From Xenophilus sp. L33 (GTDB lineage: Bacteria; Pseudomonadota; Gammaproteobacteria; Burkholderiales; Burkholderiaceae_C): DNA of 64,000 nucleotides. Numbering within the stretch: the first letter of the stretch is position 1; each line of letters opens with the position of its first letter. This document shows, piece after piece, positions 4,302 through 63,600 of this stretch. The notes below the pieces were generated by a model, which saw only the letters and a program-made list of their open reading frames with translations, searched no databases and was not told where the DNA came from. The stretch lies in NCBI RefSeq assembly GCF_009765735.1, contig NZ_LMUW01000221.1, forward strand, positions 229,586 through 293,585, read 5' to 3'. Both the position numbers and the translations under genes were made by a program.

Positions 4302-5305
4302 TCGAGCGCAGGCTTCACCGCCAACCAGGGCTTGCCCACGGTCCGCCGCCCCGCCAGCGCCGCCAGCGCCACGGGCGCTTCGTCGAACGCGAAGCCCGCC
4401 GAGCGCAACGGGTGCAGCCGCGCCGCGGCGTGCGCCTCGAACAGTTCGCCCATCAGTGCCGCCGCGTGCGCCGGATCGCGCTTCATCACCTCGCCCCACA
4501 GCACCCCGATCGCCGACGCGTTGTGCAGCAGCAGGCGGTTCGCGGGGAGCGCGGTCAAGGTGCCGGCGGCGAAGCCGATGACCAGGTAGCGGGCGCGGAA
4601 GGCCAGGCAGCGCAGGCTCTGCGCGCCGACGTCGCCGCCGACCGGGTCGAAGATCACGTCGATGCCGTCGGGCGCGATCGCGCGCACCGCATCGACCCAG
4701 TCGCCGTCCGCGTAGTCGATCGCCGCGTCGGCGCCGAGCGCTTCGCAGGCGGCGCGCTTCGCGGACCCGGCCGCGGTCGCGATCACCCGCGCACCGAACA
4801 TTCGGCCGAGGTCGATGGCCGCGCTGCCGACACCGCCGGCCCCTGCATGCACCAGCAGGCTCTCGCCGGCGCGCAGCCGGGCGACGTCGCGCAAGGCGTG
4901 CAGGGCGGTCGGGTAGCTGCCGCGCAGGGCCAGCGCGACGTCGGCCGGGACGCCGGCGGGGAGCGCCAGCGCCTCCTCGTGCGCGACGAGCGCGTAGCGG
5001 GCGAAGCCACCGGTGCGCATGCCGCCGGCGATGCGGGTGCCGAGCGGCAGCGGACCGCTCGCATGGCCATCGCCGACGATCGTCCCGATCACCTCGACGC
5101 CGGGCGTGAAGGGCAGGGCGGGCTTGCGCTGGTAGCGCCCGCGCACCATCAGCGTGTCGAGGAAGTTGAGGCCGGCCGCCTGCACTTCCACCAGGTAGTG
5201 GCCGGGACCCGGCACGGGCATCGGCAGTTCGGCCAGCCGCATCGCGCCGCTGTCGTCGATGCGCTCGACCTGCCAGGCTTGCATCGTTTCGGGCAGTGCG
5301 GTCAT
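4298..5305 (-). CDS. Medium-chain dehydrogenase/reductase, quinone oxidoreductase-like (NADPH)
   Basis: A 335-residue MDR-superfamily oxidoreductase without the structural or catalytic zinc cysteines, as in NADPH:quinone reductase and enoyl-CoA or 2-alkenal reductases. The N-terminal GroES-like domain includes PGPGHYLVEVQAAGLNFLD and PFTPGVEVIG. The nucleotide-binding motif is HAGAGGVGSAAIDLGRMFGA, followed by VIFDPVGGDV. The start overlaps the stop of the upstream phosphotransferase gene as ATGA, so both belong to one minus-strand operon running from the thiolase gene at 7935 down to here. A role in reducing an enoyl-CoA or carbonyl intermediate of the cluster is plausible but unproven. Confidence 0.86.
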   Translation of the reverse strand: MTALPETMQAWQVERIDDSGAMRLAELPMPVPGPGHYLVEVQAAGLNFLDTLMVRGRYQRKPALPFTPGVEVIGTIVGDGHASGPLPLGTRIAGGMRTGGFARYALVAHEEALALPAGVPADVALALRGSYPTALHALRDVARLRAGESLLVHAGAGGVGSAAIDLGRMFGARVIATAAGSAKRAACEALGADAAIDYADGDWVDAVRAIAPDGIDVIFDPVGGDVGAQSLRCLAFRARYLVIGFAAGTLTALPANRLLLHNASAIGVLWGEVMKRDPAHAAALMGELFEAHAAARLHPLRSAGFAFDEAPVALAALAGRRTVGKPWLAVKPALD

Positions 5306-16648: not shown

Positions 16649-17608
16649 ATGGGAATCCCTTTCATCTCCAGGCCGCGCCGTGCGCTGTGGGTCGCCGCTG
16701 CCGCGCTCGGCACCATCGTCCTCTCGGCTTGCGCACCGGTCACGGTGCTGAACGACCTGGTCACCAGCCGCACCTACCACCTCGACGCCGGCATCGCCTA
16801 CGGCAGCCAGCCGCGCCAGCAGCTGGACGTCTACCGGCCGCTGGCCGAGCGCACGGCCACGGGCGGGCGGCCGCCGCTGGTGGTCTTCTTCTACGGCGGC
16901 ACCTGGACCCACGGCAATCGCGCCGACTACAAGTTCCTCGGCGAGGCACTGGCCGCGCGCGGTGCGGTGGTGGTGCTGCCCGACTACCGGCTGTCGCCGC
17001 AGGCCACCTATCCGGCCTTCGTGCAGGACAGCGCGCTGGCCACCAAGTGGGCGCTCGACAACGCCGAGCGGCTGGGCGCCGATCCGGCCAGGGTCTACGT
17101 CATGGGCCACAGTGCCGGCGCCTACATGGCGGCGATGCTGGCGCTCGACGGGCGCTGGCTGAAGCAGGTCGGCGCGCAGCCGAAGCAGCTGGCCGGCTGG
17201 ATCGGCCTGGCCGGGCCCTACGACTTCCTGCCGATCGGCGATCCGGAAACGCAGGTCGCCTTCAACTGGCCGAACACCCCGGCCTCGTCGCAGCCGCTGG
17301 CCCATGTGACGGCGGCCTCGCCGCCGACGCTGCTCATGGTCGGCAAGAAGGACGAGGTGGTCGATCCGCAGCACAACACCGAAGGCATGGCCGACAAGCT
17401 GCGCGCCGCCGGCGTGCCGGTGCAGCTGCGCGAATACGACCAGCTCGGCCATGTCGGCCTGATGGCCGCCTTCGCCGAGCCGCTGCACTGGATCGGCGGC
17501 CCGGTGCTGCCGCCGGTGCTCGGCTTCATCGGCTTGCCGGTGGCGGCGCCGGCGACCGCGTCCGGCGCCGCCGCGACGCCAGCAGCGAGCCGTACACCGC
17601 CAGGTTGA
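16649..17608 (+). CDS. Alpha/beta hydrolase lipoprotein (BD-FAE/carboxylesterase-like)
   Basis: A 319-residue alpha/beta hydrolase. The ATG at 16649 gives a signal peptide with lipobox LSAC (about residue 25), so it is probably a lipoprotein. The oxyanion region is FFYGGTWTHGNRADY, the nucleophile elbow is GHSAGAY, the acid lies in GKKDEVVDPQHN and the His in LGHVGLMAAF. This arrangement matches BD-FAE or acetyl-esterase-like hydrolases. Its last 83 bases overlap antiparallel with the end of the DUF2784 gene. A TTG at 16634 is an alternative but weaker start. Confidence 0.85.
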   Translation: MGIPFISRPRRALWVAAAALGTIVLSACAPVTVLNDLVTSRTYHLDAGIAYGSQPRQQLDVYRPLAERTATGGRPPLVVFFYGGTWTHGNRADYKFLGEALAARGAVVVLPDYRLSPQATYPAFVQDSALATKWALDNAERLGADPARVYVMGHSAGAYMAAMLALDGRWLKQVGAQPKQLAGWIGLAGPYDFLPIGDPETQVAFNWPNTPASSQPLAHVTAASPPTLLMVGKKDEVVDPQHNTEGMADKLRAAGVPVQLREYDQLGHVGLMAAFAEPLHWIGGPVLPPVLGFIGLPVAAPATASGAAATPAASRTPPG

Positions 17609-17924
17609 GCAGCACGACCACGCCGCCGAGGGCGACCTGCACCGGCCGCGTCAGGCCTTCGGGGTAGATCAGCGCGGTGACGTAGTGGTCGATGAAGCCG
17701 CCGCTGTAGCCGACCTGGCCGGCCTGGTGGCGCAGCGCGTTCTCCAGCGGCGTGAGCGGGCAGATCCAGCCGGTCGATGTCACCCACACGGCCCAGGCGG
17801 CCGCCGGCAGGTGCAGCCAGGCCGCACGCGGACGGCGCCGCACCCACAGGCCGCCCAGCAGCACGAAGAGGATGAACAGGCCGTGCAGCACCAGCACGGC
17901 ATCGGCCGCCAGGCCGGCGATCAA
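17526..17924 (-). CDS. DUF2784 small membrane protein
   Basis: A 132-residue integral membrane protein with a TTG start at 17924, one base after the stop of the preceding hydrolase gene. It shows the DUF2784 pattern: an N-terminal helix ADAVLVLHGLFILFVLLGG, the motif WICPLTPLENALR, then YSGGFIDHYVTALIYPEG and a last hydrophobic helix. The family function is unknown. The Cys-Pro-Leu-Thr and FIDHY residues are its hallmarks. It is the third gene of the operon with the MASE1-like and fusion hydrolase genes. A GTG a few codons downstream is an alternative start. Confidence 0.8.
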   Translation of the reverse strand: MIAGLAADAVLVLHGLFILFVLLGGLWVRRRPRAAWLHLPAAAWAVWVTSTGWICPLTPLENALRHQAGQVGYSGGFIDHYVTALIYPEGLTRPVQVALGGVVVLLNLAVYGSLLASRRRRTRSPAPPPASR

Positions 17925-17925
17925 C

Positions 17926-19392
17926 TCACGCCTCGGCCTTTTGCAGGCTCTCGACCTGCTCGACGTAGGCCGCCATCGCCTGCGCCCGGTCCATGCCCTT
18001 GCGCTTGGCCCAGGCATCGAACTTGGCGCGCCCGACCTGGTCCATGAGGCCGGGACGATCGCCTTCGACGTCGCCGATGCTGCCCTGCTTGTAGAGCGCG
18101 TAGAGGACGAGGAGCGTGTCGTTGTCGGGCGCCTTGCGCAAGGTGCGCGAAGCCTTCGCCGCGGCCTCGAAGGCCAGCTCGGCGGGGCTGGGGCCTTCGG
18201 GCGCGGCCTCGCCGCCGAAGTGCCGGTCCTCGGTCTCGACCTCGTCGGGGAACCAGCGGGCCTCGATCAGCTTGCCGGTGCGCATCGCGAAGGCCAGCAC
18301 GCCCGGCGAGCGCAGCGGGCCGACCGAGAGCGTCGCCGGCACCACCACCACGCCGGCGTTGAAGCTGGGCGCGCCGAAGGAACCGAAGGCCGCGCCTTCG
18401 GCCCAGCCGGCCAGCCGCGCGCGGCCCTTGCTGCCGGCGTGCACGCCGCTCGTGCGGTTGGCGCCCGGCTGGAACCAGGCGAAGTCCGGAATGCCGCGCT
18501 GGTAGAGCGCGGCGAAGTCGCCGGCGGCCAGGTCGGACAGCGCCGCGGCCAGCAGCGCCGCCATCTCGGCCGCCGCCATGCCGGACTGCGTGGAGGCCAT
18601 GCCGAGCGAGGCCGCCGGGCTGGCGTCGAAGAACTCCAGCACGTTCTTGGCGACGATCTCGCGGTCGTTGTCCACGCAGATCATGTGGTAGCTGTCTTCC
18701 AGCACCACCATGCGCGCGCGGCCGGCGCGCGGGCCGCCGCCGATGTTCTCGACCAGGTAGTTGGCCGAGCGCAGGCTCGTGAGCTCGTCCTCGCGGGCAT
18801 GGATGACCAGCGTGCGGCAGTCGATCCTGTCGAGCCCCTTCATCACCATCGCGCGCAGCCGGTCGACCTCGCGGATGCAGGCCAGCGGCACCCAGCCGTA
18901 GTGGAAGTTGTCGCCGCGCTCGAACTTGGCCTTGACCAGCGAGCGCAGCCGCTCGTTCTTGATGCCGAAGGGATCCTCCTCGACCACCTTCATGCGGTCG
19001 GCGACGCCCGGCACCAGGTAGAGCAGCGGCCGCGCCGCGCGATACCAGGGCGTTGACCAGCCGTCGATGTAGACCGGCGGCGCCAGCGCCACCAGCTGAC
19101 CCTTGGTGTGGCGCTCGCGCTTGACCGTCTCGACCGCCAGCAGCGAGCCCATGCACATGCCCATCACGTGCAGCACCTCGTGCTCCTGGACGATCTCGCG
19201 GTACTTGACGCGCACCGCCTCCAGCCAGTCCTCGGCCTTCACCCGCACCAGGTCCTCGGGCGTGGTGCCGTGCCCGGGCAGCGTCAGCGCATGCGTCACG
19301 AAGCCGGCGTTCTTCAGCCGCTTGTGCATCGAGCCGAGGTCGTATTGGGTGCCGCCCAGGCCGTGGATCAGGAAGACGCCGGGTTCAGGCAT
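17926..19392 (-). CDS. Three-domain fusion: Cys-nucleophile alpha/beta hydrolase, NTF2/SnoaL-like domain, acyl-CoA-binding domain
   Basis: A 488-residue protein. Residues 1 to about 270 form an alpha/beta hydrolase (FLIHGLGGTQYDL) whose nucleophile elbow reads GMCMG, with Cys80 where esterases have Ser. The acid is in HAREDELTSL and the His in EDSYHMICVD. Residues about 275-395 look like an NTF2/SnoaL-like domain (LAAGDFAALYQRGIPDF, then AMRTGKLIEARWFPDE). Residues about 400-488 are an acyl-CoA-binding protein domain (LYALYKQGSIGD, RPGLMDQVGRAKFDAW). A Cys elbow is otherwise typical of PHA synthases, so an acyltransferase, thioesterase or polymerase-like reaction on acyl-CoA is plausible. It lies between the MASE1-like gene (8-base overlap) and DUF2784 (1-base gap). 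The substrate is unknown. Confidence 0.85.
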   Translation of the reverse strand: MPEPGVFLIHGLGGTQYDLGSMHKRLKNAGFVTHALTLPGHGTTPEDLVRVKAEDWLEAVRVKYREIVQEHEVLHVMGMCMGSLLAVETVKRERHTKGQLVALAPPVYIDGWSTPWYRAARPLLYLVPGVADRMKVVEEDPFGIKNERLRSLVKAKFERGDNFHYGWVPLACIREVDRLRAMVMKGLDRIDCRTLVIHAREDELTSLRSANYLVENIGGGPRAGRARMVVLEDSYHMICVDNDREIVAKNVLEFFDASPAASLGMASTQSGMAAAEMAALLAAALSDLAAGDFAALYQRGIPDFAWFQPGANRTSGVHAGSKGRARLAGWAEGAAFGSFGAPSFNAGVVVVPATLSVGPLRSPGVLAFAMRTGKLIEARWFPDEVETEDRHFGGEAAPEGPSPAELAFEAAAKASRTLRKAPDNDTLLVLYALYKQGSIGDVEGDRPGLMDQVGRAKFDAWAKRKGMDRAQAMAAYVEQVESLQKAEA

Positions 19393-20698
19393 CGAGCGCC
19401 TCGAGTCCTTGCGTCGCGGGTGCCTGCACCACGCGCAGCAGGCCGACGACAAGTTCGACCGCGTCGTCCGGCCCGACCACCGGCGACCAGCTCACCCGCA
19501 TCGGCAGGCGGCGGCCGCCGAGCTGCATCGCGTAGTCGTCGCCGGCGTCGCGGTGCTCGCCGCCGCGCGCGGCCGCCCAGGCGGTCTCGGCCAGCGGCCG
19601 GCCATCGGGCTCCACCCGCGCCAGCCAGTCGGTGATGTTGCCGATCGAGGTGGCGGCGCTGCCGAGCACCGCGCCGGCGTCCTGGCCCCAGCTGATGCGG
19701 CCGGTGCGCGCATCGACTTCGGCGCTGGCCACGTGCGACGCCTGCAGCGCGCGCTCGTAGCGCAGCTGCCAGGCGCGGGCCGAGACCAGCGCCTGCCGCC
19801 GCTGCTCGGTCAGCGCGCGCAGCAGCAGCAGCAGCAGGGTCCACACCGCCACGTAGACCTGCGCCTGGATCACCGCCTCGTTCAGCGAACTGTCGGCCAG
19901 CGCGAACGGGCCGCCGCCCGAGGCGGTGCGCCCGACCACCAGCAGCGCGCCGATCAGGGTGGCGATGGCGCCACCCTGGGCGCCCCAGATCAGCGCCGCC
20001 AGCACCAGGAAGGGCATCGGCAGGTAGGCGAGCGTCGCGGCGGTGCGACCGATGCGCTCGGCCACGTCCTTGCCGAAGACCACCCAGGCGATCACCAGGA
20101 AGACGGCGAAGGCCACGGCGCCGGCCCAGAAGCGGGCCATCGACAGGCCGCCCGAGCGGCGCACCTCGAAGTCGCGAAAGGCGGTGACCAGCGGCGCGAC
20201 CAGCAGGATGCCGAGCGCGGTGGACGAAGCCCAGGTGCGCCATTCGAGGCCGTAGCTGGTGGTCGGGCGCACCCAGATCCAGAAGCCGGCTGCGACGCTG
20301 GCACCGAGCGCCGCGGTGAGCACCGCGCCGGCCAGCAGCGCGGCCAGCGCGGCGAGTGGATTGCCTTCCGGCACCAGCCGCGTGGCGACCCAGGCGCCGA
20401 GCACCACGAAGCCGATCTCGATCGCGGCGAACACCAGCACCGACGCCGGATGCAGATCGTGGCCATAGAGGCCCCAGGCGACCGCGGCGATGAAGGAGGC
20501 CAGGATCACCGGTGCCCAGCGGGCCGGCGGCATGACGCAGAGCGCGCCGAAGACGACGCCGGCGGCGAGCCAGACCGGCGTGGTCTCGCTGTCTTCCCAG
20601 GCATTCCAGGCGAGCGCCTGCGAGATCAGCCCGACGATCAGGTAGGCCACCAGCACCGCTACGGCGCTCTTCCATGGCGCGCGACTCGAGGCTTGCAT
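19385..20698 (-). CDS. MASE1-type membrane sensor with C-terminal PAS-like domain and no output domain
   Basis: A 437-residue protein. About eight hydrophobic helices fill residues 10-300 and include MASE1-like features (TTPVWLAAGVVFGALCVMP, GNPLAALAALLAGAVLTAAL, then TWASSTALGILLVAPLV). A short PAS-like segment follows (ASAEVDARTGRISWGQDAG to the PVVGPDDAVELVVGLLRVV strand). MASE1 normally precedes GGDEF, EAL or histidine-kinase modules; here the protein stops after the PAS with nothing else. It is the first gene of a three-gene operon and overlaps the fusion-hydrolase start by 8 bases. A membrane sensor or scaffold role is inferred. Confidence 0.8.
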   Translation of the reverse strand: MQASSRAPWKSAVAVLVAYLIVGLISQALAWNAWEDSETTPVWLAAGVVFGALCVMPPARWAPVILASFIAAVAWGLYGHDLHPASVLVFAAIEIGFVVLGAWVATRLVPEGNPLAALAALLAGAVLTAALGASVAAGFWIWVRPTTSYGLEWRTWASSTALGILLVAPLVTAFRDFEVRRSGGLSMARFWAGAVAFAVFLVIAWVVFGKDVAERIGRTAATLAYLPMPFLVLAALIWGAQGGAIATLIGALLVVGRTASGGGPFALADSSLNEAVIQAQVYVAVWTLLLLLLRALTEQRRQALVSARAWQLRYERALQASHVASAEVDARTGRISWGQDAGAVLGSAATSIGNITDWLARVEPDGRPLAETAWAAARGGEHRDAGDDYAMQLGGRRLPMRVSWSPVVGPDDAVELVVGLLRVVQAPATQGLEALDA

Positions 20699-25474: not shown

Positions 25475-26233
25475 ATGACTGACGAAACGATCCTGGAAGG
25501 CGCCGAGCCTTTCTTCTTCAAGGGCAACGACATCGGCGTGCTGGCCTGCCACGGCTTCACCGGCACCACGCAGAGCATGCGCTACCTGGGCGAGCAGCTG
25601 CACGGCGCCGGCTACACGGTGATCGGCCCGCGCCTGAAGGGCCACGGCATCTCGCCGGCGGCGATGGCGAAGACCACCGCCGCCGACTGGATCGAATCGG
25701 TCGACGAGGCGCTGGCCGAACTGCGCAAGACCTGCTCGCAGGTCTTCATGGTCGGCCTCTCGATGGGCGGCACGCTGACGCTCTACACCGCGGCCAAGCA
25801 TGCCGACGTGATCAAGGGCGCGATCCCGATCAACGCCGTGGTCCGCATCGGCAAGGCCGACATGGCCAGCGTCGTGTTCGACCGCTCGATGCCCGACACC
25901 GTGCCCGGCATCGGCTCCGACGTGAAGGACCCGAAGACCACCGAGCTGGCCTACCGCGAGGTGCCGGTGCCGGCCTTCCGCCAGATCTACGCGCTGGCCG
26001 GCGTGACCCACGACCTGCTGCCGCTCATCAAGTGCCCGACGCTGGTGATGCAGTCGCGCGAGGACCACGTGGTCGACCCGACCAACGGCCCGCGCATCGT
26101 CAAGGGACTGGGCTCCAAGCGGGCCGAGCTCTTGTGGCTGGAGGATTCGTACCACGTGGCGACGATCGACTTCGACAAGGAGCTGATCGCGCGCGAGGCG
26201 ATCGCGTTCATCCGGTCGATCGCGGGGAAGTAG
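25475..26233 (+). CDS. Carboxylesterase/monoacylglycerol-lipase-like alpha/beta hydrolase
   Basis: A 252-residue cytoplasmic esterase of the Est30/monoacylglycerol lipase group. The oxyanion segment is CHGFTGTTQSM, the nucleophile Ser lies in GLSMGG, the acid in SREDHVVDP and the His in EDSYHVATIDFD. There is no signal peptide. The layout of the His region closely resembles the hydrolase half of the fusion protein at 17926-19392, so the two are probably related, but here the nucleophile is a normal Ser. Position after the ABC importer suggests it hydrolyses the imported ester, which is inference. Confidence 0.87.
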   Translation: MTDETILEGAEPFFFKGNDIGVLACHGFTGTTQSMRYLGEQLHGAGYTVIGPRLKGHGISPAAMAKTTAADWIESVDEALAELRKTCSQVFMVGLSMGGTLTLYTAAKHADVIKGAIPINAVVRIGKADMASVVFDRSMPDTVPGIGSDVKDPKTTELAYREVPVPAFRQIYALAGVTHDLLPLIKCPTLVMQSREDHVVDPTNGPRIVKGLGSKRAELLWLEDSYHVATIDFDKELIAREAIAFIRSIAGK

Positions 26234-51656: not shown

Positions 51657-54600
51657 ATGCCGTCCTTGCCCCGCTTCGCCGAGCTCCTTCGACCCCAATC
51701 CCACCGATTCGCACTCGAGAGCCGCCAATTGTTCGATGGCGCGGCGCATGCGGTGGCGGAGAGCCATCACGCCGACGCCCTGGACCCGCATCGATCGGAG
51801 GCACCCCCGCCCCCGCCGCCTCCGCCGCCGCCTGCACCACCGCCGGCACCGCGCCCGGCACCGGCCGCCGGCACCGCCGATCACGCCGCCGAACGCGAGG
51901 CGCCGCGCACCCTGGCCGTGGCCGACCTAGCCGCCAACGGCAACGCGACGGGCAATGCCGCCAAGGTTGCCAGCGCGACCGCCGCGACCGCCGCAACCGC
52001 CGCCACCTCCGCCACCACCGACACCCACACCGTCTACGTCATCGACGAGAACGTCGCCGACTACCAGCAGATCGTCAGCGCGCTGCCCAAGGGCAGCGAG
52101 GTCATCCTGATCGATCCGAACTCCGACGGCGTGGCCCAGCTGGCCGCGGCGCTGAAGGGGCAGACCGGCATCACCGACCTGTCGATCATCAGCCATGGCG
52201 CGGCCGGCGAGATCACGCTGGGCACCACCACCATCACCGCCGCCAACATCGGCGACCATGCCGCCGCCTGGCAGTCGATCGGCGCCAGCCTCGGCGCCAA
52301 CGGCGACATCCTGCTCTACGGCTGCGACGTCGCCAGCCAGGGCAACGGCCTCCTGACGCAGATCGCCGGCCTCACCGGCGCCGACGTGGCCGCCTCCACC
52401 GACGCCACCGGCGCCGCCAGCAAGGGCGGCGACTGGACGCTCGAGGCCTCGGTCGGCCACATCGAATCCAAGGCCTTCTCGGACCCGGGCTACGACGGCC
52501 TGCTGGCCCAGCCCACGGTGGCCACCACCGCGACGAAGCTGCAGGTCGCCGAGCCCAGCACGCTCGACGCGCCCGGTGCCGACAGCGGCCGCCTGAGCGG
52601 CTGGACGGTCGCCGACGCCAGCGGCAACGTGACGGTGACCGTCTCGGTCGACAGCCTGGTCAACGGCGTGGCCGACGGCACGCCCGACACCGCAGTCGGC
52701 GGCCTCACCGCCGGCGCCACCGGCACCGCCGTCGCCTCGCTGAGCTTCACCGGCACGGTGGCCGACGCCAACACCTGGCTGAACAACGTCACCTTCCACG
52801 CCACCGACGTCGAACTCGGCAACACCGCCGCGCAGGCGACGCTCAAGGTGGTCGTCACCGATTCGGCGCAGCCCACGCTGAGCGCCACGCAGACGCTGCC
52901 GGTGACCGTGACGCCGTCCAACGACCCGACCGTCATCGGCAACTCGACCACCTCGGTGGCCGAGGTCGGCAGCACCGTGCTGACCGTGGCGACGCTGAAT
53001 GCGCTGGACCCCGAGGTGGACGCGCCGAACCCGACGCAGACGCCCAGCCAGATCGTCTACTCGGTGACGGCCGAGCCGGGCTATGGCTACCTGACGGTCA
53101 ACGGCACGCGGCTCGGCGTCGGCTCGGTCTTCACCCAGGCCGACGTGATCGCCGGCAACGTGGTCTACGTGCACACCGCCACCGGCGCCTCGCAGGACAC
53201 CCCCGACAGCTTCGGCGTCTCGGTCAACGACGGCGCCACGCCGGCCAACCTGTCGGACCACGCCACGATCACCCTGAACATCACGCCGCTGAACCAGCCG
53301 CCGACCGTCTCCGGCTCGGGCAGCATGCTCGAAGGCCAGCCGGCCAATGCGCACGACGGCAGCGGCAATGTGCTGTCGGACGTCGGCGCCTTCATCACCG
53401 CCAGCGGCGGCGGCGACGATGCCGACTCGACCCTCAGCGTGAAGCTCACCGCGCTGCCGACCGACGGCACGCTCTACTACAGCGGGACCGCCATCGTCGG
53501 CGGCGTCACCGAGACGCTCACCAACCACGCGATCACCTCGGCCGACGTCGCCGCCGGCTTCAGCTTCGCCTACACCGCGCGCGACGGCCTGACCTACGGC
53601 AACAACGGCAACCGCGACCAGAACCCGGCCACGCCGTACCCGTTCAGCGACGGCTTCAACGTCGTGGTGACCGACGGTGGCGGCGGCACCGGCACGCCGG
53701 CCTCGACCGCCGACACGCGCATCGCGATCGACGTGCGGCCGACCGACGACGACCCGGTGCTCACGACCTCGCCGACGCCGGTGGCCACGGTCACCGCGGC
53801 CGGCGACGGCCTGGGCGTCTACAAGGGCAGCTACACCACGACCATCACGCCGGCGCTGCTGAATGCCACCGACGTCGATTCGAGCGACAGCAACCTCACC
53901 TTCGCGGTCACCTCGCAGGCGGGCCTCAACCAGGGCATCCTGCTGGTCAACGGCGCGCCGCTGGGCGCGGGCGGCGTCTTCACCATGGCCGAGGTGCGCG
54001 CCGGCGAGGTGCAGTACGTGCAGCAGGCCGGGGCGGCCGCGGGCGACACCGACAACTTCAGCTTCCAGGTGCTGGACAACACCACCAGCGTGCGCTGGAA
54101 CAGCGACGGCAGCAGCGTGACGCGGCCGGGCGGCGTCTACCAGGACAACGGCACGCCCGGCAACTACGCCGACGACACGCTGCAGACCTTCAACCTCACG
54201 ATCAACCTCGTGCCGACGCCGCAGGGCAACGGCGACAGCTTCTCGCCGCCGCCGAGCTACGTGGCGGTCCACACCGATTCGAGCTACGCCGGCACCGACA
54301 CCACCGGCGCCTCGCGCGGCACGCTGGACGAGGGCGGCACCGTGGTGCTGGCCGGCACCGGCGCCGACTTCACGACCACGCCGGGCCTGAGCTACACGGT
54401 CGACGGCGTGCCGGCCTCGCAGGTGGTCTACACCGTGCTGGCCTTCAACGGCGCCGGTCCGAACTGGAACGGCGAGCTGCAGAAGCTGGAGAACGGCACC
54501 TGGGTCGACCTCAACGTCTACGACACCTTCACGCAGGCCGACCTCAACGCCGGCGACATCCGCTACCAGCACAACGGCACCAGCGAGGACTTCCAGTCGA

Positions 54601-57600
54601 GCGTGGTGCTGTCGGCCTCGGCCGGCGTGCTGGTCGGCCCGGTCGGCAGCCAGACGCCGGACAACTGGACGACCAGCTTCAACTTCTACGTCCACCCGCT
54701 CAACGATGCGCCGGTGGTGACCGGCAGCTCGAACACGGTGCTGGCGGAAGGCCAGACGATCGGCATCACCAGCGGCCAGCTGCAGATCACCGACCAGGAC
54801 GACGCGGTCAGCGAGAGCTACCTCGAAGGCCCGTCGCAGGGCGGCACCGGCGGCCTGACGCTGCCGGGCGGCGGCAACAACTACGCCTACAACAACGATG
54901 CCACCGGCGCCGGCGCGCTCAAGTTCGAGGTCGAGACCCTGCCCGCCGGCGGCACGCTGCAGTATTCGACCGACGGCGGCGCGACCTGGCTCGACGTGGT
55001 CGCGGGCGTCACGCAGATCGACGCGTCGGTGCTGACCGCCAACGCCGCCACCACCGGCCTGCGCTTCGTCAGCAACGGCGGCGAGACCCGCAACGCCAGC
55101 TTCAGCGTGGAAGCGATCGACCGCTGGGGCGCGGTGTCGAACACCGCCACCGTCAGCCTGCAGATCACCAACGTCGACGACGCGCCCACGATCGCCAGCG
55201 ACCCGACGCAGCCCGATCCGACGGTGCCGGGCGATTCGCCGAACCTGATCGGCGGCGCGCCGCAGAACAACCCGCTGACCGTCGCCGAAGGCAGCGCCGG
55301 CCGCATCACGCCGGCCTTGCTGCAGGCCTACGACCCGGACAGCGATTCGACGCAGGTGCAGTACAGCATCACCAGCGCGCCGGCCAACGGCTACCTCGCC
55401 TACTCGACCAACGGCGGCGCCAGCTACCAGGTGCTGGGCGTGAACTCGTCCTTCACCCAGGCCGACGTCGCGGCCGGGCGCATCTACTACGTGAGCAACG
55501 GCAGCGAGAGCAGCGGCGCCACCTACCCGACCGGGCAGGACGACAAGTTCACCTTCACCGTCTCCGACGGCGCCAAGGAACAGACGAACAACCAGTTCTG
55601 GATCTACACGACGCCGACCAACGACGCGCCGGTGGTCAAGGGTCCGGGCGGCCCGATCGCGATCGACAGCCTGATCCCGGCCGACAACCCGGTCACTGGC
55701 TTCACCGTGACCGACCCGGACCTGGTCAACGTCACCAGCGGCGAGCAGGACTTCATCGAGGTCACGGTTCGGCTGCGCGACGCCAACGGCAATGCGCTGC
55801 CCGACTCGGTCTACAACGGCGTCAGCATCGCGGTCACGACCTCGGCCGCGGGGCTGGTCGACGGCACCGAGAACGGCGCCGGCACCTACCTCGTGCTGCA
55901 CGGCACGGTGGAGGACGTGCAGAGCGCGCTGTCGACCCTGACCGTCACCTTTGCGGACGACCGCAACACCGCCTACCAGCTGCAGGTCATCGCCGACGAC
56001 CGGCTGCGCAACCCAGACGGCAGCCTGGCCGGCGGTGCCAACGGCGGCGCGCTCAACCAGAGCGCCACGCCGCTCGTCGCGCCGGTCGCGGTGCCGACCA
56101 CGGTCTACGACTGGGGCCACGACGACATCCCGACCAGCGGCGCGATCCTGGGCGACATCTCGTCGCAGTCGGTGCTGATCTACGCCTCGTCGGTCAACCA
56201 GCCGGCGACGCTCACCGCCACCGGCGGCAAGGTCAGCCTGGAGGACCAGGCCAGCTACATCGGCGGCGGCTTCGCGGTCGCCGACCCGGAATCCGACGGC
56301 TTCGGCACGCCGGTCACCGTGACCCTGAGCGTGCCCAGCGGCACGCTCGGCATCGGCGGCAGCGGCATCCAGACCAGCGTGCCGATCGACGGCCGCACCG
56401 TGACGGTCGCCGGCGACAACACCGGCACGCTGGTGCTGACCGGCCGCGCCGGCGACATCCAGGACCTGCTCAACAGCGGCACCGCCACCGGCCTGACCTA
56501 CCAGAGCGCGCTCAACGTCAACCACGACCTGAACGGCGCCGCGGCCGGCGACGTCACGGTCACGCTGAGCCTGAACGACGCCGGCTCGGCCATCGGCGGC
56601 GACACCGGCAGCGGCAGCGTCTCGAACAACCCGCCGAACGCCAGCTTCGACATCACGATCACGCCGACCAACGACGCGCCGACCGTGGCGGTGGCCGGCA
56701 ACCGCGACACCCCGGTGTTCCTCCTCGGCTCGACCACGCCGACCGCGGTGGGCGGCCTGTCGGTGGGCGACATCGACATCGCCGGCGACGGCGGCGGCGT
56801 GGCCACCGGCGAGACCGACTTCGTGCAGGCCACGGTGCGCATCACCACCGCCGCCGGCACGCCGCTCGCGGCCGACCTCTACAACGGCAGCAACGCCGGC
56901 GACGTCAGCGTGATCGTGCTGGGCTCGACCGCCTCGGCCACCAACCCGGACGGCAGCGGCGGCGCCTTCGCGGTCGACACCACCTACACCGGCAACCAGT
57001 CGGCGCTGGTGATCCGCGGCACGCTGTCGCAGGTCGATGCCTACCTGGCCGGCCTCACGCTGTCGATGACCGGCGCCGGCGTGGTCGACGCCGACACGCC
57101 CTACCGCGTCGAGGTGGTGGCCGACGACCGGGTGCGCGACGTCGCGACCGGCGCGCTGGTCGACAGCGACTCGGGCACCGCGGGCGTGCAGCCCATCGCC
57201 AACGGCGGCCTGAACCCCGGTGCCGGCAACGTCGGCACCGCGAATCCGCCGCAGACCGTGGTCGACCCGTACGCGGCGACGCCCACCGGCCTCACGCAGG
57301 ACGTCGCCTCCAACTACCAGACGGTGTTCCCGACCGGCATCAACGACCCGGCGCACATCACCGGCACGCCGGCGACCTACACCGAGGCCAACCCGACGAT
57401 CACGCTGACCAACATCCAGGTCAGCGACCAGGACGCGCAGGCCACCAGCATCCTGACCACCACGGTCTCGGTGCCGGCCGGCTTCAGCATCGTGAGCGTC
57501 GGCGCCGGCTCGGGCGGCACCGCGGTCATCTCGGGCGACACCCGCTCGATCGTGCTGACCGGCACCCTGGCGCAGATCAACAGCCGCATCGACACGATCG

Positions 57601-60600
57601 CGGTGCAGCTGCCCGACCCGGACGGCGCCGGCCCGGCCCAGCGCAGCGACTGGAACGGCAGCTTCGGCATCACGGTGGTGGTGGACGACAACGGCAACTC
57701 CGGCGCCCGCCCGGCCACGCTGGCCGCCGGCGACAACACGACCACCGGCACCTTCACCTACGAAGACCCGAGCGCCGGCTCGACCGACAACGCGCTGGTC
57801 ACCACCCGCACCTACACGCTCACGGTCAACCCGCAGAACGACGCGCCGGTGCTGGCCGGCACCACCGGCACCCGCACGGTGGTCGAGTATCCGAACGCCG
57901 ACAACATCCCGGGCACGCCGGGCGTGCAACTGGTCAGCACCGGCACCGCCAGCCTCACCGACATCGACTTGACGACCACCGCCGGCCTGACCACCTTCGG
58001 CGCCGGCACGATCACGGTCACGCTCGGCGCGGTGCCGGCCGGTGTCGCCGCCGGCGACCACCTGACGGTGTCGACGCCGCTGCCGGCCGGCTTCACCAGC
58101 AGCGGCGGCAGCAACGGCGCGCCGCTGGTCATCAGCTTCGGCCTCGGCACCACCGAGGCGCAGATCGACCAGGTGATCGAGAGCATGTCGTACAGCAGCA
58201 GCAGCGACAACCCGACCAACTTCGGCGCCAACCCGACGCGCAGCTTCAGCATCGTCGTCAACGACGGCGACAACCAGCAGGTCGGCGGCGCCAATGCCGG
58301 CGGCCCGACCGCGCTCAACAGCAACGCGCTGACCGGCACCATCGCGATCACCGCGGTCGACGACGCGCCGGTCGCCAACGACGATGCCCGCCACGTCACC
58401 GAGGACGGCCCGGCGATCACCGGCAACGTGATCGTCGGCGATGCCAACGGCGACGTCGCCGACACCGACGTCGACAGCCTGCCGGCCGCCCTGAACATCG
58501 CCGCGATCCGCACCGGCACCGAGGCCGCCGGCACCGGCACTGCCGGCGCGGTCGGCGCCGCGCTGGCCGGCAGCTACGGCAGCCTGGTGCTGAACGCCAA
58601 TGGCAGCTACACCTACACGCTCGACAACGCCAACCCGGCCGTCAACGCGCTGAAGACCGGCCAGACGCTGACCGAGACCTACACCTACACCCTGTCCGAC
58701 GGCGCCGGAGGCACCGACACCGCGCAGATCACCATCACCATCGACGGCCACACCGACGGCGCACCGTCGATCACGCCGGTCGACGGCAACGGCGCGGTTG
58801 CCGGCCAGGCGACGGTGTACGAAGCCGGCCTCACCACCGACGGCCCGGCCGGCGAGAGCAGGACCGTCGCCGGTACGGTGCACGTCAGCGCGCCCGACGG
58901 GCTGGCGAGCATCTCGGTCGGCGGCACCACGGTCACGGCCGCGCAGCTTGGCACGCTCGGCACGACGCCGGTGGTCATCGACACCGGCGAAGGCCTGCTC
59001 ACCCTGACCGGCTACGCCGCCGGCAGCGGCACGCTCAGCTACAGCTACACGCTGAAGGCGGCACTGAACCAGCCCGGCACCGACACGCTCGACAACATCG
59101 CGCTCGGCGTCACCGACCTCGGCGCCGCGCCGCTCACCGGCACCGCCACGGGCACGCTGGCGATCGACATCGTCAACGACGTGCCGACCGCCCGCCCCGA
59201 CACCAACGCCATCACCGAGGACGCGGCACCGGCGACGGTCGCCGGCAATGTCGTGACCAACGACCGCCTCGGTGCCGACGGCGCGGCCACCACCGGCCCG
59301 GTCACCGCGGTGAGCCACGGCGCCACCGCCGGCACGCTCGGCGCCAACCTGGCGACCACCTACGGCTCGATCGTGGTCAACGCCGACGGCAGCTACGTCT
59401 ACACGCTGGACAACAACAACGTCGCGGTCAACGCGCTGAAGACCGGCCAGAGCCTCAACGACGTCGTGAGCTACACGGTCACCGACCGCGACGGCGACAC
59501 CTCGACCACCAATTTGACGATCACGATCGCCGGCCACACCGACGGGCCGCCCTCGGCGGTGCCGGCCGACGCCAACGGCGCCGATCCGGGCCAGGTCACG
59601 GTCTACGAAGCGGGCCTCACCACCGACGGACCGGCGGGCGAGAGCAAGACCGCCTCCGGCACCATCGCGGTCAGCGCCGCGGACGGGCTGCAGAGCGTCT
59701 CGGTCGGCGGCACCGTGCTGACCTCGGCGCAACTGGCGAACCTTTCGGCCGGCAACCCGGTCAGCATCACCACGCCCGACGGCACCTTGCTGCTGACCGG
59801 CTTCAGCGTGGGCTCGACCGTCGGCGGCGTGCCGGGCGGCGTGCCGACCGCCGGCACGCTCAGCTACACCTACACGCTCGTCACCGCCCAGCACCAGACG
59901 GGCGTCGACAGCACCGACGACATCCCGCTGGTGGTGACCGACCTCTCGGGCGCACCGACCGGCGGCAGCGCCACCAGCACGCTGAGCGTGCGCATCGTCA
60001 ACGACGACCCGACCGCGCACCCGGACACCGCCGCCATCAGCGAGGACGCGGCGCCGACGGTCACCGGCAACGTGGTCACCAACGACCGCATCGGCGCCGA
60101 CGGCCCGGCCGCCGGCGGCCCGGTGACCTCCTTCGGCTTCGGCGCCACCACCGGCGCGGCCGGCAGCACGATCGCGACCGCCTTCGGCACCATCCAGGTC
60201 AACGCCGACGGCAGCTATGTCTACACGCTCGACAACGACAACGCCACGGTCAACGCGCTGAAGACCGGCCAGACCCTGACCGAGGTCGTGAACTACACGA
60301 TCACCGACGGCGACGGCAACAGCTCGCCCTCGACTCTCACCGTCACGATCAACGGCCACAGCGACGGCGCGCCGGCGATCACCTCGGCCGACGGCAACGG
60401 CGCCGCCGCCGGCGAGGCCACGGTCTACGAGGCCGGCCTCACCGCCGACGGCCCGGCCGGCGAGAGCAAGAGCGCCAGCGGCAGCATCTCGGTCAGCGCG
60501 CCGGACGGCCTGCAGTCCGTCGACATCGGCGGCACCACGCTCGGCGCGGCGCAACTGGCGGCGCTGAGCCCGGCGACGCCCGTGACCATCGCCACCGCCG

Positions 60601-63600
60601 ACGGCACGCTGGTGCTGACCGGCTTCACCGCCGGCACCGTGGTCGGCGGCGTGCCGACCTCGGGCACGCTCAGCTACACCTACACGCTCGGCGCGGCCCA
60701 GCACCAGGCCGGCGCCGACAGCGTCGACAGCATCGCGCTGTCGGTCACCGACCGCTCGGGTGCCACCACCGGCAGCAGCGCCGCGGGCACGCTGAACATC
60801 GACATCGTCAACGACGTGCCGACCGCGCGCCCCGACACCGCCGCGATCACCGAGGACGCCGCGCCGGCCACGGTCGCCGGCAACGTGGTCACCAACGACC
60901 GGCTCGGCGCCGACGGCGCGGCCGCGGGCGGCGCGGTCACCGGCGTGGTCTCGGCCGCGGGCACCGGCACGGTCGGCGCGAGTCTGGCGACCACCTACGG
61001 CGCGATCGTGCTGAACGCCGACGGCAGCTACGTCTACACCCTGAACAACGACAACGCCGCGGTCAACGCGCTGAAGACCGGCCAGAGCCTGAGCGACGTG
61101 GTGACCTACACGATCACCGACGGCGACGGCAACACCTCTGCCACCACGCTCACCGTGACCATCGCCGGCCACAGCGACGGCACGCCGACGGTCGCGCCGG
61201 TCGATGCCAACGGCGCCGATCCGGGCCAGGTCACGGTCTACGAGGCGGGCCTCACCACCGACGGGCCGGCCGGCGAGAGCAAGACCGCCTCCGGCACGAT
61301 CGCGATCACCGCGCCGGACGGGCTGCAGAGCGTGAGCGTCGGCGGCACCGTGCTGACCACGGCGCAGCTGGCGACGCTGTCCAGCGGCAACCCGGTCAGC
61401 ATCGCCACGCCCGACGGCACCTTGCTGCTGACCGGCTTCACGCCCGGCACCAGCGTCGGCGGCGTGCCGACCGCCGGCACGCTCAGCTACACCTACACGC
61501 TCGGCGCGGCGCAGCACCAGACCGGCGTCGACAGCACCGACGACATCCCGATCGTGGTGACCGACCTCTCGGGCGCGGCCACCGGCAACACCGGCGCGGG
61601 CACCCTGAGCGTGCGCATCGTCAACGACGACCCGACCGCGCATCCGGACACCGCCAGCGTGACCGAGGACGGCGTGCCGACTGTCACCGGCAATGTCGTC
61701 ACCAACGACCGCATCGGCGCCGACGGCCCGGCCGCCGGCGGGCCGGTGACCTCCTTCGGCTTCGGCGCCACCTCCGGCACGGTCGGCGGCACCATCGCCA
61801 CCGCCTTCGGCACGATCCAGGTCAACGCCGACGGCAGCTACGTCTACACGCTGGACAACAGTAACCCGACGGTCAATGCGCTCAAGACCGGCGAGACGCT
61901 GACCGAGGTCGTGAACTACACGATCACCGACAGCGACGGCAACAGCTCGCCCTCGACCCTGACCGTGACCATCGACGGCCACACCGACAACGCCGCCGGT
62001 CCGCTGATCGTGCCGGTCGACGGCAACGGCGCCGCCGCCGGCCAGGTCGACGTCTACGAGCACGGCCTCACCGACGGCCCGGCCGGCCCCGACACCAGCG
62101 AACGCAACACCGGCGCGATCGCGATCGAGGCCGACGACGGCCTGACCTCGGTCACCGTCGGCGGCACCACGCTCACGGCGGCGCAGCTGCAGAACCTCGG
62201 CACCAACCCGGTCACGGTCCACACGCCCGAGGGCACGCTGGTGCTCACCGGCTTCACCGACGTGGCCTTCAACGGCACGGTGCCGGTCTCCGGCAACCTG
62301 CAATACACCTACACGCTCGACGGCCCGGTGAACCAGCCGGGCGCCGCCAGCACGATCGACCCGATCGCGCTGTCCATCCTCGACGCCGGCGGCGCCACCA
62401 GCACCGGCACGCTGGGCGTGCGGGTGGTCAACGACGTGCCGGTGGCGCACGGCGACAGCGCCGACATCACCGAGGACGGCACGCCCACGGTCACCGGCAA
62501 CGTCAAGGCCAACGACGTGCCCGGCGCCGACAACGGCAACGGCGTGCCGGTGACCGGCGTGGCCTTCGGCGGCAGCACCGGCGCGGTCGGCACGCCGCTG
62601 GCGACCGCCTACGGCACGGTGACGATCAACGCCGACGGCAGCTACAGCTACACGCTGGACAACGCCAATCCGGCGGTGCAGCACCTGATCGCCGGCGAGA
62701 GCCTGGTCGAGACGGTGAACTACACGATCACCGACGCCGACGGCGACCGCTCGACCGCCGCGCTGACCCTCACCATCCATGGCACCGACGACGTGCCGAC
62801 GCTGGCGCTGGTCGACGGCAATGGCGGCGCCGACGGCCAGGCCTCGGTCAGCGAACGCGGCCTCACGAGCCCGTCCGACAACAGCGAGACCACCACCGGC
62901 CGCTTCGTCGTCACCGCGCCCGACGGCCTGACCGGCCTGGTCATCGACGGCACCGCGGTCAGCCCGGCGCAGCTGGCCAACCTCGGCAACGCGCCGCTGA
63001 CCCTGGGCACCGCGCTCGGCCAGATGACGCTCACCGGCTACGACCCGGCGACCGGCACCGTGAGCTACAGCTACACCCTCGGCCACGACCAGGACAACGC
63101 CGGCGGCGAAGTCCTCGACCGGATCTCGATCACGGTGCAGGACCGCGGCGGCGCCACCGTCACCGGCAGCCTCGGCGTGCTGGTGCTGGACGACGTGCCG
63201 ACCGCCAACAGCGACAGCGCCACGGTGAGCATGGCGATCCCGAACGCGACCGTGAGCGGCAACGTGGTCGGCGGTGCCGGCCGCGGGCCGGGCGACGTGC
63301 CCGACCGCATCGGCGCCGACGACACGCCGACGCCGGTCACCGGCTTCTCATTCGACGGCCACGCCGGCGTGGTCGGCGGCACGCCGCTGGCCGGTGCCTA
63401 CGGCACGCTGAAGCTGAACGCCGACGGCAGCTACACCTATTCGGTGGATGCGAGCAACGCCAAGCTGGCGGCGCTCGGCGACGGCCAGACCGTGACCGAC
63501 GTCTTCAGCTACACCATCACCGACTCGGACGGCAGCACCAGCACGGCCCGGCTGGTCATCACGATCAAGGGCTCGACCCCGCCGCTGCCGGCCCTCGGCG

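Follow-up and report, generated by a model that had tools for sequence, protein, structure and literature searches.

A cysteine-type alpha/beta hydrolase fused to NTF2-like and acyl-CoA-binding domains and encoded next to a MASE1-PAS membrane receptor

The bacterial monoacylglycerol lipases of Bacillus sp. H257 (PDB access codes 3rm3 and 4ke9) and LipS (4fbl) are serine enzymes. Cysteine nucleophiles are usually poor ester hydrolases. SulM is reportedly a cysteine-type thioesterase domain of an NRPS. For the thioesterase domain of ObiF1, the published account states that the GxCxG motif favours acyl transfer (PMC6668435), and the one on PhaC from Chromobacterium sp. USM2 presents a GxCxG elbow, a Cys-Asp-His triad and acyl transfer from acyl-CoA (PMC5509742). 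A study of E. coli DgcE describes MASE1 as a common input domain that had long lacked a clear molecular function; the soluble partner RdcA docks on the MASE1 of DgcE and activates this membrane protein, and the authors suggest that further MASE1 domains may serve for docking as well (PMC6510439).

The window, the whole stretch of 64,000 nucleotides of Xenophilus sp. L33 DNA analysed here, encodes a cysteine hydrolase extended by two further domains and, directly upstream, a MASE1-PAS protein. The acyl transfer by the Cys elbows of PhaC and ObiF1 and the docking on MASE1 in DgcE lead us to read the pair as a membrane receptor and an acyl-transferring enzyme. Our proposal, which we hold with confidence and doubt evenly balanced, is a two-gene module in which a MASE1-PAS receptor would work with a cytoplasmic cysteine hydrolase moving acyl groups from a thioester to an acceptor or to water.

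The fusion gene and its hydrolase domain

17926-19392, minus strand: fusion gene for a cysteine hydrolase with NTF2-like and acyl-CoA-binding domains, 488 residues (ORF translation, Pfam, alignment)
18619-19392, minus strand: alpha/beta hydrolase domain, residues 1-258, with the monoacylglycerol-lipase fold (Pfam, AF2, fold alignment to 3rm3)
19153-19155, minus strand: codon of Cys80, presumed nucleophile in GMCMG (translation, alignment)
18787-18789, minus strand: codon for Asp202, the presumed triad acid (no variation among the 48 rows of alignment A1)
18685-18687, minus strand: codon for His236, the presumed triad base (no variation among the 48 rows of alignment A1)

The gene reads on the minus strand from an ATG at position 19392 to a TGA at 17926, in an open reading frame with a third-position GC content of 0.96, and its product has 488 residues. 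The alpha/beta hydrolase domain (residues 1-258) is followed by an NTF2/SnoaL-like domain (about 274-392) and by a complete acyl-CoA-binding domain (ACBP, 403-487). The AF2 model of residues 1-488, computed from 48 sequences (mean pLDDT 88.2, pTM 0.59), shows three folded units, with low confidence in a linker at residues 264-270; at this pTM the packing and orientation of the domains relative to one another are uncertain. Against four relatives, each of the three domains has a dN/dS below 1, with dS near or past saturation in several cases. The long tail that follows the hydrolase domain is found in 34 of the 80 genome-contig loci, therefore the fusion, which recurs in many genera, is genuine and not an assembly error as the preliminary description had considered. 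Its presence also in L006, L139 and L141, and a full-length relative with 74% identity on a plasmid of Variovorax boronicumulans, rule out a chance fusion as well.

Pfam recognises Hydrolase_4 (E 1.5e-13) and Abhydrolase_6 (E 1.4e-12) in residues 6-247. The nearest folds among the matches listed are 3rm3, 4ke9_A and 4fbl_B, which align with Z of 28.7-29.0 and 2.1-2.4 A over 227-232 residues; the VIA-align superposition of the domain on 3rm3 gives Z 29.0 and 2.1 A over 227 residues, at 27% identity. PhaC is not among the 50 fold matches listed for the domain, and absence from this list carries no weight against a family.

The elbow residue is Cys in all 80 loci (the best 80 of 97 relatives, from genome contigs), mostly within GMCMG or GMCLG; the relatives were found with six peptide patterns, one of which spans the cysteine and may favour Cys relatives while the other five do not. 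The preliminary description had placed Cys80 where esterases have Ser, and this trait extends to the close relatives, which do not mostly carry Ser. C80, D202 and H236 are invariant in the 48 rows of alignment A1 (the window protein and 47 of the 80 loci) and apparently form a catalytic triad. The wider family is mixed, with 79 Cys and 8 Ser among 87 tree rows and at least four changes on the tree; L182 carries Ser within the same wider branch as the Cys hydrolases. The window holds also, about 6 kb away on the plus strand (25475-26233), a Ser-type hydrolase (GLSMG) of the same broad fold family which at 29% identity is a distant paralog.

These data bear on an alternative in which the protein is an ordinary monoacylglycerol lipase-like hydrolase of lipid esters with Cys in place of Ser, its ACBP capturing or sensing the product side and MASE1 being a co-inherited regulator that makes no direct contact. 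The very close match to 3rm3 and the existence of Ser paralogs, including the one in the window, speak for this enzyme, while the retention in 80 of 80 loci of a residue usually poor for ester hydrolysis, and the genes for acyl carrier protein (ACP) and ketoacyl synthase (KS) adjoining 22 of the 40 Cys loci of the wider family, speak against it; we consider it unlikely.

Another alternative builds on the likeness to PHA synthases pointed out in the preliminary description: Cys80 would build or degrade an (oligo)hydroxyalkanoate from hydroxyacyl-CoA. The GxCxG elbow and the Cys-Asp-His triad are those reported for PhaC (PMC5509742), and an ACBP is present. One relative, L147, has a Phasin_2 gene (E 2.2e-7; 4357-4713 of the wider stretch L169, minus strand) about 1.4 kb from the hydrolase gene and on the same strand, with a phospholipid methyltransferase-like gene in between. 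Against this, no PhaC model is found among the Pfam and NCBIfam matches of the window protein listed up to E 10, the nearest listed folds are monoacylglycerol lipases, and there is no pha gene among the Pfam-tested neighbours in the window, those of other loci being only partly annotated. The likeness holds for elbow and triad and does not extend to profiles, and we give a PHA-synthase-like activity very little credence.

The NTF2-like and acyl-CoA-binding tail

18217-18573, minus strand: NTF2/SnoaL-like domain, residues about 274-392 (profile searches, AF2)
17932-18186, minus strand: acyl-CoA-binding domain, residues 403-487, keeping Tyr431, Tyr434, Lys435, Lys457 and Tyr476 (Pfam, AF2, alignment)

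No Pfam family is matched by the middle segment of the window protein on its own, whether at E<=10 (search with the whole protein) or at E<=1 (search with the segment). Among 28 aligned middle segments, from 32 in hand, 16 match SnoaL_2 (best 3e-9), and the profile of the aligned segments retrieves the NTF2/cystatin-like structure 3g8z with E 1.1e-24; with the AF2 fold, these matches bear out the SnoaL/NTF2-like segment suggested earlier. The C-terminal ACBP, also suggested earlier, matches PF00887 over residues 407-480 with E 8.8e-24 and 83.9 bits, well above the gathering cut-off of 28.3. In an ungapped alignment Y431, Y434, K435, K457 and Y476 fall on the five ligand positions of mammalian ACBP, which we take, in numbering and roles, to be Tyr28, Tyr31, Lys32, Lys54 and Tyr73.

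All five ligand residues are kept in 23 of the 38 long-tailed sequences (window protein included; Tyr or Phe allowed at the second position). Two Paraburkholderia rows have Arg at the first position. In Achromobacter at least three of the five are gone from every one of the 13 long-tailed rows; these copies (L054-L057, L059, L060, L062-L068) have kept the tail and lost most ligand residues, which suggests a domain either decaying or repurposed. It is likely that the window ACBP binds acyl-CoA and that not every fused relative does. The losses in Achromobacter mean that acyl-CoA tethering cannot be general, and the substrate-tethering acyltransferase or thioesterase proposed in the preliminary description is reduced in this respect, its thioester use being backed by the ACP and KS neighbours of Cys relatives.

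The length of the tail varies among 83 loci (the 80 genome-contig loci and L006, L139 and L141): at least 190 residues follow the hydrolase domain in 37, 110-190 in 12 and fewer in 34, which have no tail. The 12 tails of intermediate length are too short for both domains. One of them, in L069, is cut by the contig end; the other 11, mostly from Cupriavidus, fit an NTF2-like domain alone, and seven of these are part of the middle-segment alignment. The relative found on a plasmid of Pandoraea oxalativorans is without the ACBP part. With 34 of 83 loci lacking the tail and 12 having one too short, the NTF2-ACBP extension is dispensable and not the core of the system. The fusion first taken as the unit does have its three domains, but the constant companion of the hydrolase is the MASE1-PAS protein.

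On the tree the three architectures form clusters, and explaining them takes at least seven changes, or at least six for any tail versus none. One early gain of the tail with later losses is a simple account, the tree itself not telling gain from loss, and transfer between lineages was likely also involved. The tree comes from a quick method and may suffer from long branches that meet, which leaves L155, L179-L182 and L002 without a secure position. We rejected a free NTF2-ACBP protein as the source of the tail: the sole candidate (G241, L115) turned out to be an ordinary ACBP whose alignment was extended by chance.

The MASE1-PAS partner and other neighbours

19385-20698, minus strand: gene of the MASE1-PAS membrane receptor, 437 residues from the likely ATG, sharing 8 bases with the start of the fusion gene (Pfam MASE1, AF2, Foldseek)
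17526-17924, minus strand: gene of a DUF2784 protein, with a possible TTG start just past the stop of the fusion gene (Pfam PF10861, E 5.3e-40)

MASE1 (PF05231) is matched in the window receptor with E 1.1e-34 and in all 38 aligned members. PAS_3 is matched in 33 of the 38; the window receptor's own PAS is absent from its Pfam matches and is folded as a PAS in the AF2 model (pLDDT 92.1, pTM 0.84). The 50 Foldseek matches listed for the MASE1-PAS model rest on the PAS, and no solved relative of MASE1 was seen among them, which again carries no weight against unlisted families. No GGDEF, EAL, kinase, cyclase or other output domain is recognised in the Pfam matches of the 38 members; the partner ends after one PAS.

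A MASE1-PAS gene is found directly upstream of the hydrolase gene, on the same strand, in 78 of the 80 loci (77 at a stricter threshold); it is absent from L042 and L061, and weak and partial in L049. With starts chosen by the script, the distance from the upstream gene's end to the hydrolase start lies between -22 and +29 bases in 73 of these 78, and a 4-base overlap is found in 25. Strong receptor matches (E<1e-100) occur in three of 299 family genomes (G000, G099 and G150) and the hydrolase adjoins each of them; the next match has E 6e-34, and the ORFs that hold the seven weaker matches are all 574-1175 residues long. The pair is present also on plasmids of Variovorax and Pandoraea. Unlike the NTF2-ACBP tail, the MASE1-PAS gene is a near-constant companion of the hydrolase.

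The remaining neighbours vary among genera. The next largest shared group is a patatin-like gene, found in no more than 34 of 81 neighbourhoods, mostly in convergent orientation. The DUF2784 gene, perhaps a third operon gene in the window genome, was seen only beside the window copy and falls in none of the neighbour groups that the 80 loci share; a shared third gene was rejected on these grounds. Elsewhere in the window, a very long open frame on the plus strand runs to its end (51657-64000; 4114 residues as called by the script).

In the wider Cys branch, hydrolases without MASE1 are those of L042, L061, L147, L148-L150 and L152 and, on plasmids, of L179 and L180; L147-L150 and L152 were checked with wider flanks, and on the tree L147 falls inside the MASE1 branch. 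Such hydrolases belong to several lineages, which disfavours a strict pairing. They would also fit a neighbourhood kept by shared inheritance only, with no functional link between MASE1 and hydrolase, since gene order can persist among related genera. This explanation is very improbable in view of the spacing of -22 to +29 bases in 73 of 78 loci across many genera with differing other neighbours, of the pairs on the Variovorax and Pandoraea plasmids and of the hydrolase adjoining three of three strong receptor matches in the 299 family genomes.

Other sensor genes occur near hydrolases of this branch. In L170 and L173 (wider stretches of L148 and L152, from a sister branch with GVCLG) genes for a histidine kinase and a response regulator precede the hydrolase gene, so that it too lies behind a sensor system, and in L169 a histidine kinase gene is divergent from the hydrolase.

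Information might also flow in the opposite direction, from the enzyme to the membrane protein, the hydrolase being an acyl-thioester receptor whose stable acyl-enzyme reports acyl-CoA status to MASE1-PAS. Both ACBP and NTF2-like folds bind ligands, as this role would require. The precedent would be DgcE, whose soluble partner, according to the study cited above, docks on MASE1 and activates the membrane protein (PMC6510439). The complete and conserved triad suggests turnover instead, and a MASE1-PAS protein without recognised output could form the final step only with the help of a further partner; a pure receptor role of the hydrolase appears distinctly unlikely.

Relatives in ACP-KS settings, mechanism and comparison with known systems

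The hydrolase branch is present in G000, G099, G150, G155 and G237 among the 299 family genomes (E<=6.6e-87; next match 2.8e-39), and in G155 and G237 ACP and KS genes take the place of MASE1 beside it. Three other searched genomes of the window's genus gave no close match (best E 1.9e-33), an absence in keeping with horizontal transfer. In the order sample 16 of 399 genomes match below 1e-100, followed by a gap to 1e-59; in the class sample, for which few genomes of the order were drawn, the figure is 1 of 369 at E<=1e-60.

The settings were compared in 61 loci of the wider family, which are best matches and not a random sample, window copies and re-fetched stretches being left out. Among the 40 with Cys, 22 lie beside ACP and KS, 8 beside MASE1 and 10 beside neither, and among the 21 with Ser, 18 lie beside neither and 3 beside ACP and KS; 'neither' is a weak statement because flanks were about 1500 bases for most loci. 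Wider flanks of six of the ten Cys loci with neither again contained no ACP, KS or MASE1. The three Ser loci beside ACP and KS show that this setting does not need Cys. In the MASE1 clade, none of the 80 loci has ACP or KS.

Pfam identified a ketoacyl synthase in 5 of 5 tested proteins and a PP-binding (ACP) domain in 4 of 5, the fifth (L124) having no Pfam match and being called ACP from its position, its size and a DSL motif spotted on inspection. Some of the loci marked by the ACP and KS queries are those from which the queries had been drawn (L009, L017, L027 and L031, through wider stretches, and L002 for KS), and in L002, L025 and L033 the ACP matches reach no more than 32-36 bits, which is weak.

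Gene sets of hydrolase, ACP and KS are seen in L117, L121, L122, L124, L175 and L176, and in L125 with a weak ACP match; an RND pump gene (L122), dxs (L117) and polysaccharide deacetylase and epimerase genes (L175) lie near them. The Ser relatives L118 and L181 adjoin HAD phosphatase, DegT aminotransferase and EamA-like genes, a recurring setting, with a GNAT gene in L181.

As its genes are often beside ACP and KS, the Cys hydrolase family most likely takes acyl groups from thioesters. The same neighbours of wider Cys relatives make a thioester-using acyltransferase or thioesterase better supported than the guess it was at first.

For the proposed receptor-hydrolase module, the predicted domains, the putative triad with its conservation, the intact ACBP ligand residues and the operon linkage are read from the sequence. 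We infer the thioester chemistry, acyl-CoA as donor, the physical contact with MASE1-PAS and the direction of signalling. MASE1-PAS would be a membrane receptor without recognised output domain and the hydrolase its enzymatic partner. His236 and Asp202 would activate Cys80 to accept an acyl group from a thioester donor, acyl-CoA in the fusion and acyl-ACP in the related ACP-KS operons, and either an acceptor or water would then take over the group from Cys80. Acyl-CoA may be kept near the active site by the fused ACBP, while the NTF2-like domain could be a spacer, a dimeriser or a second ligand pocket. The receptor might tie the hydrolase to the membrane, switch it, or both. A bolder version, possible but on balance doubtful, is a new type of membrane signalling: the output of MASE1-PAS would be acyl transfer from acyl-CoA by a separate Cys hydrolase rather than phosphorylation or c-di-GMP, and the ACBP would be a captured substrate antenna replacing the ACP of an ancestral ACP-KS-hydrolase operon.

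A MASE1-PAS protein that has no recognised output and one near-constant enzyme partner makes the output testable. The exchange of Ser and Cys within one fold, accompanied by a shift from ACP-KS neighbours to MASE1 and a fused ACBP, provides a good set for learning the role of Cys in alpha/beta hydrolases. The pair points to a previously undescribed enzyme-receptor system handling activated fatty acids.

The whole hydrolase-domain fold is that of the Bacillus sp. H257 monoacylglycerol lipases and LipS; the GxSxG serine of the monoacylglycerol lipase/S33 group is replaced here by Cys80, as in the 80 of 80 close loci. To our knowledge neither an NTF2-ACBP tail nor a MASE1 partner is known for these lipases. 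PhaC has in common with the window hydrolase, by sequence, the GxCxG motif and the Cys, Asp and His residues, and it uses acyl-CoA, as the window hydrolase would in our proposal. The Cys-type NRPS thioesterase domains of ObiF1 and SulM share the Cys elbow and an acyl group coming from a thioester carrier; they are fed by a carrier domain, whereas the carrier of the window protein would be CoA on the ACBP. MASE1 followed by PAS is found in both DgcE and the window receptor, which is without GGDEF, EAL or kinase.

The closest gene sets are those of ACP, KS and hydrolase in Burkholderiales, where the same hydrolase family, often with Cys, lies beside acyl-thioester machinery, and no MASE1 or ACBP tail was found there. 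No description of these sets was found in the literature searched, among the matches listed, nor was a bacterial hydrolase-ACBP fusion or a MASE1-hydrolase pair named there. In PLSDB, WP_319361828.1 and WP_319361829.1 on the Variovorax boronicumulans plasmid appear as 'acyl-CoA-binding protein' behind 'MASE1 domain-containing protein', product names that give no function, hydrolase domain or pairing. Each domain of the system is already known; their combination, the Cys subfamily and the pairing with the receptor are new.
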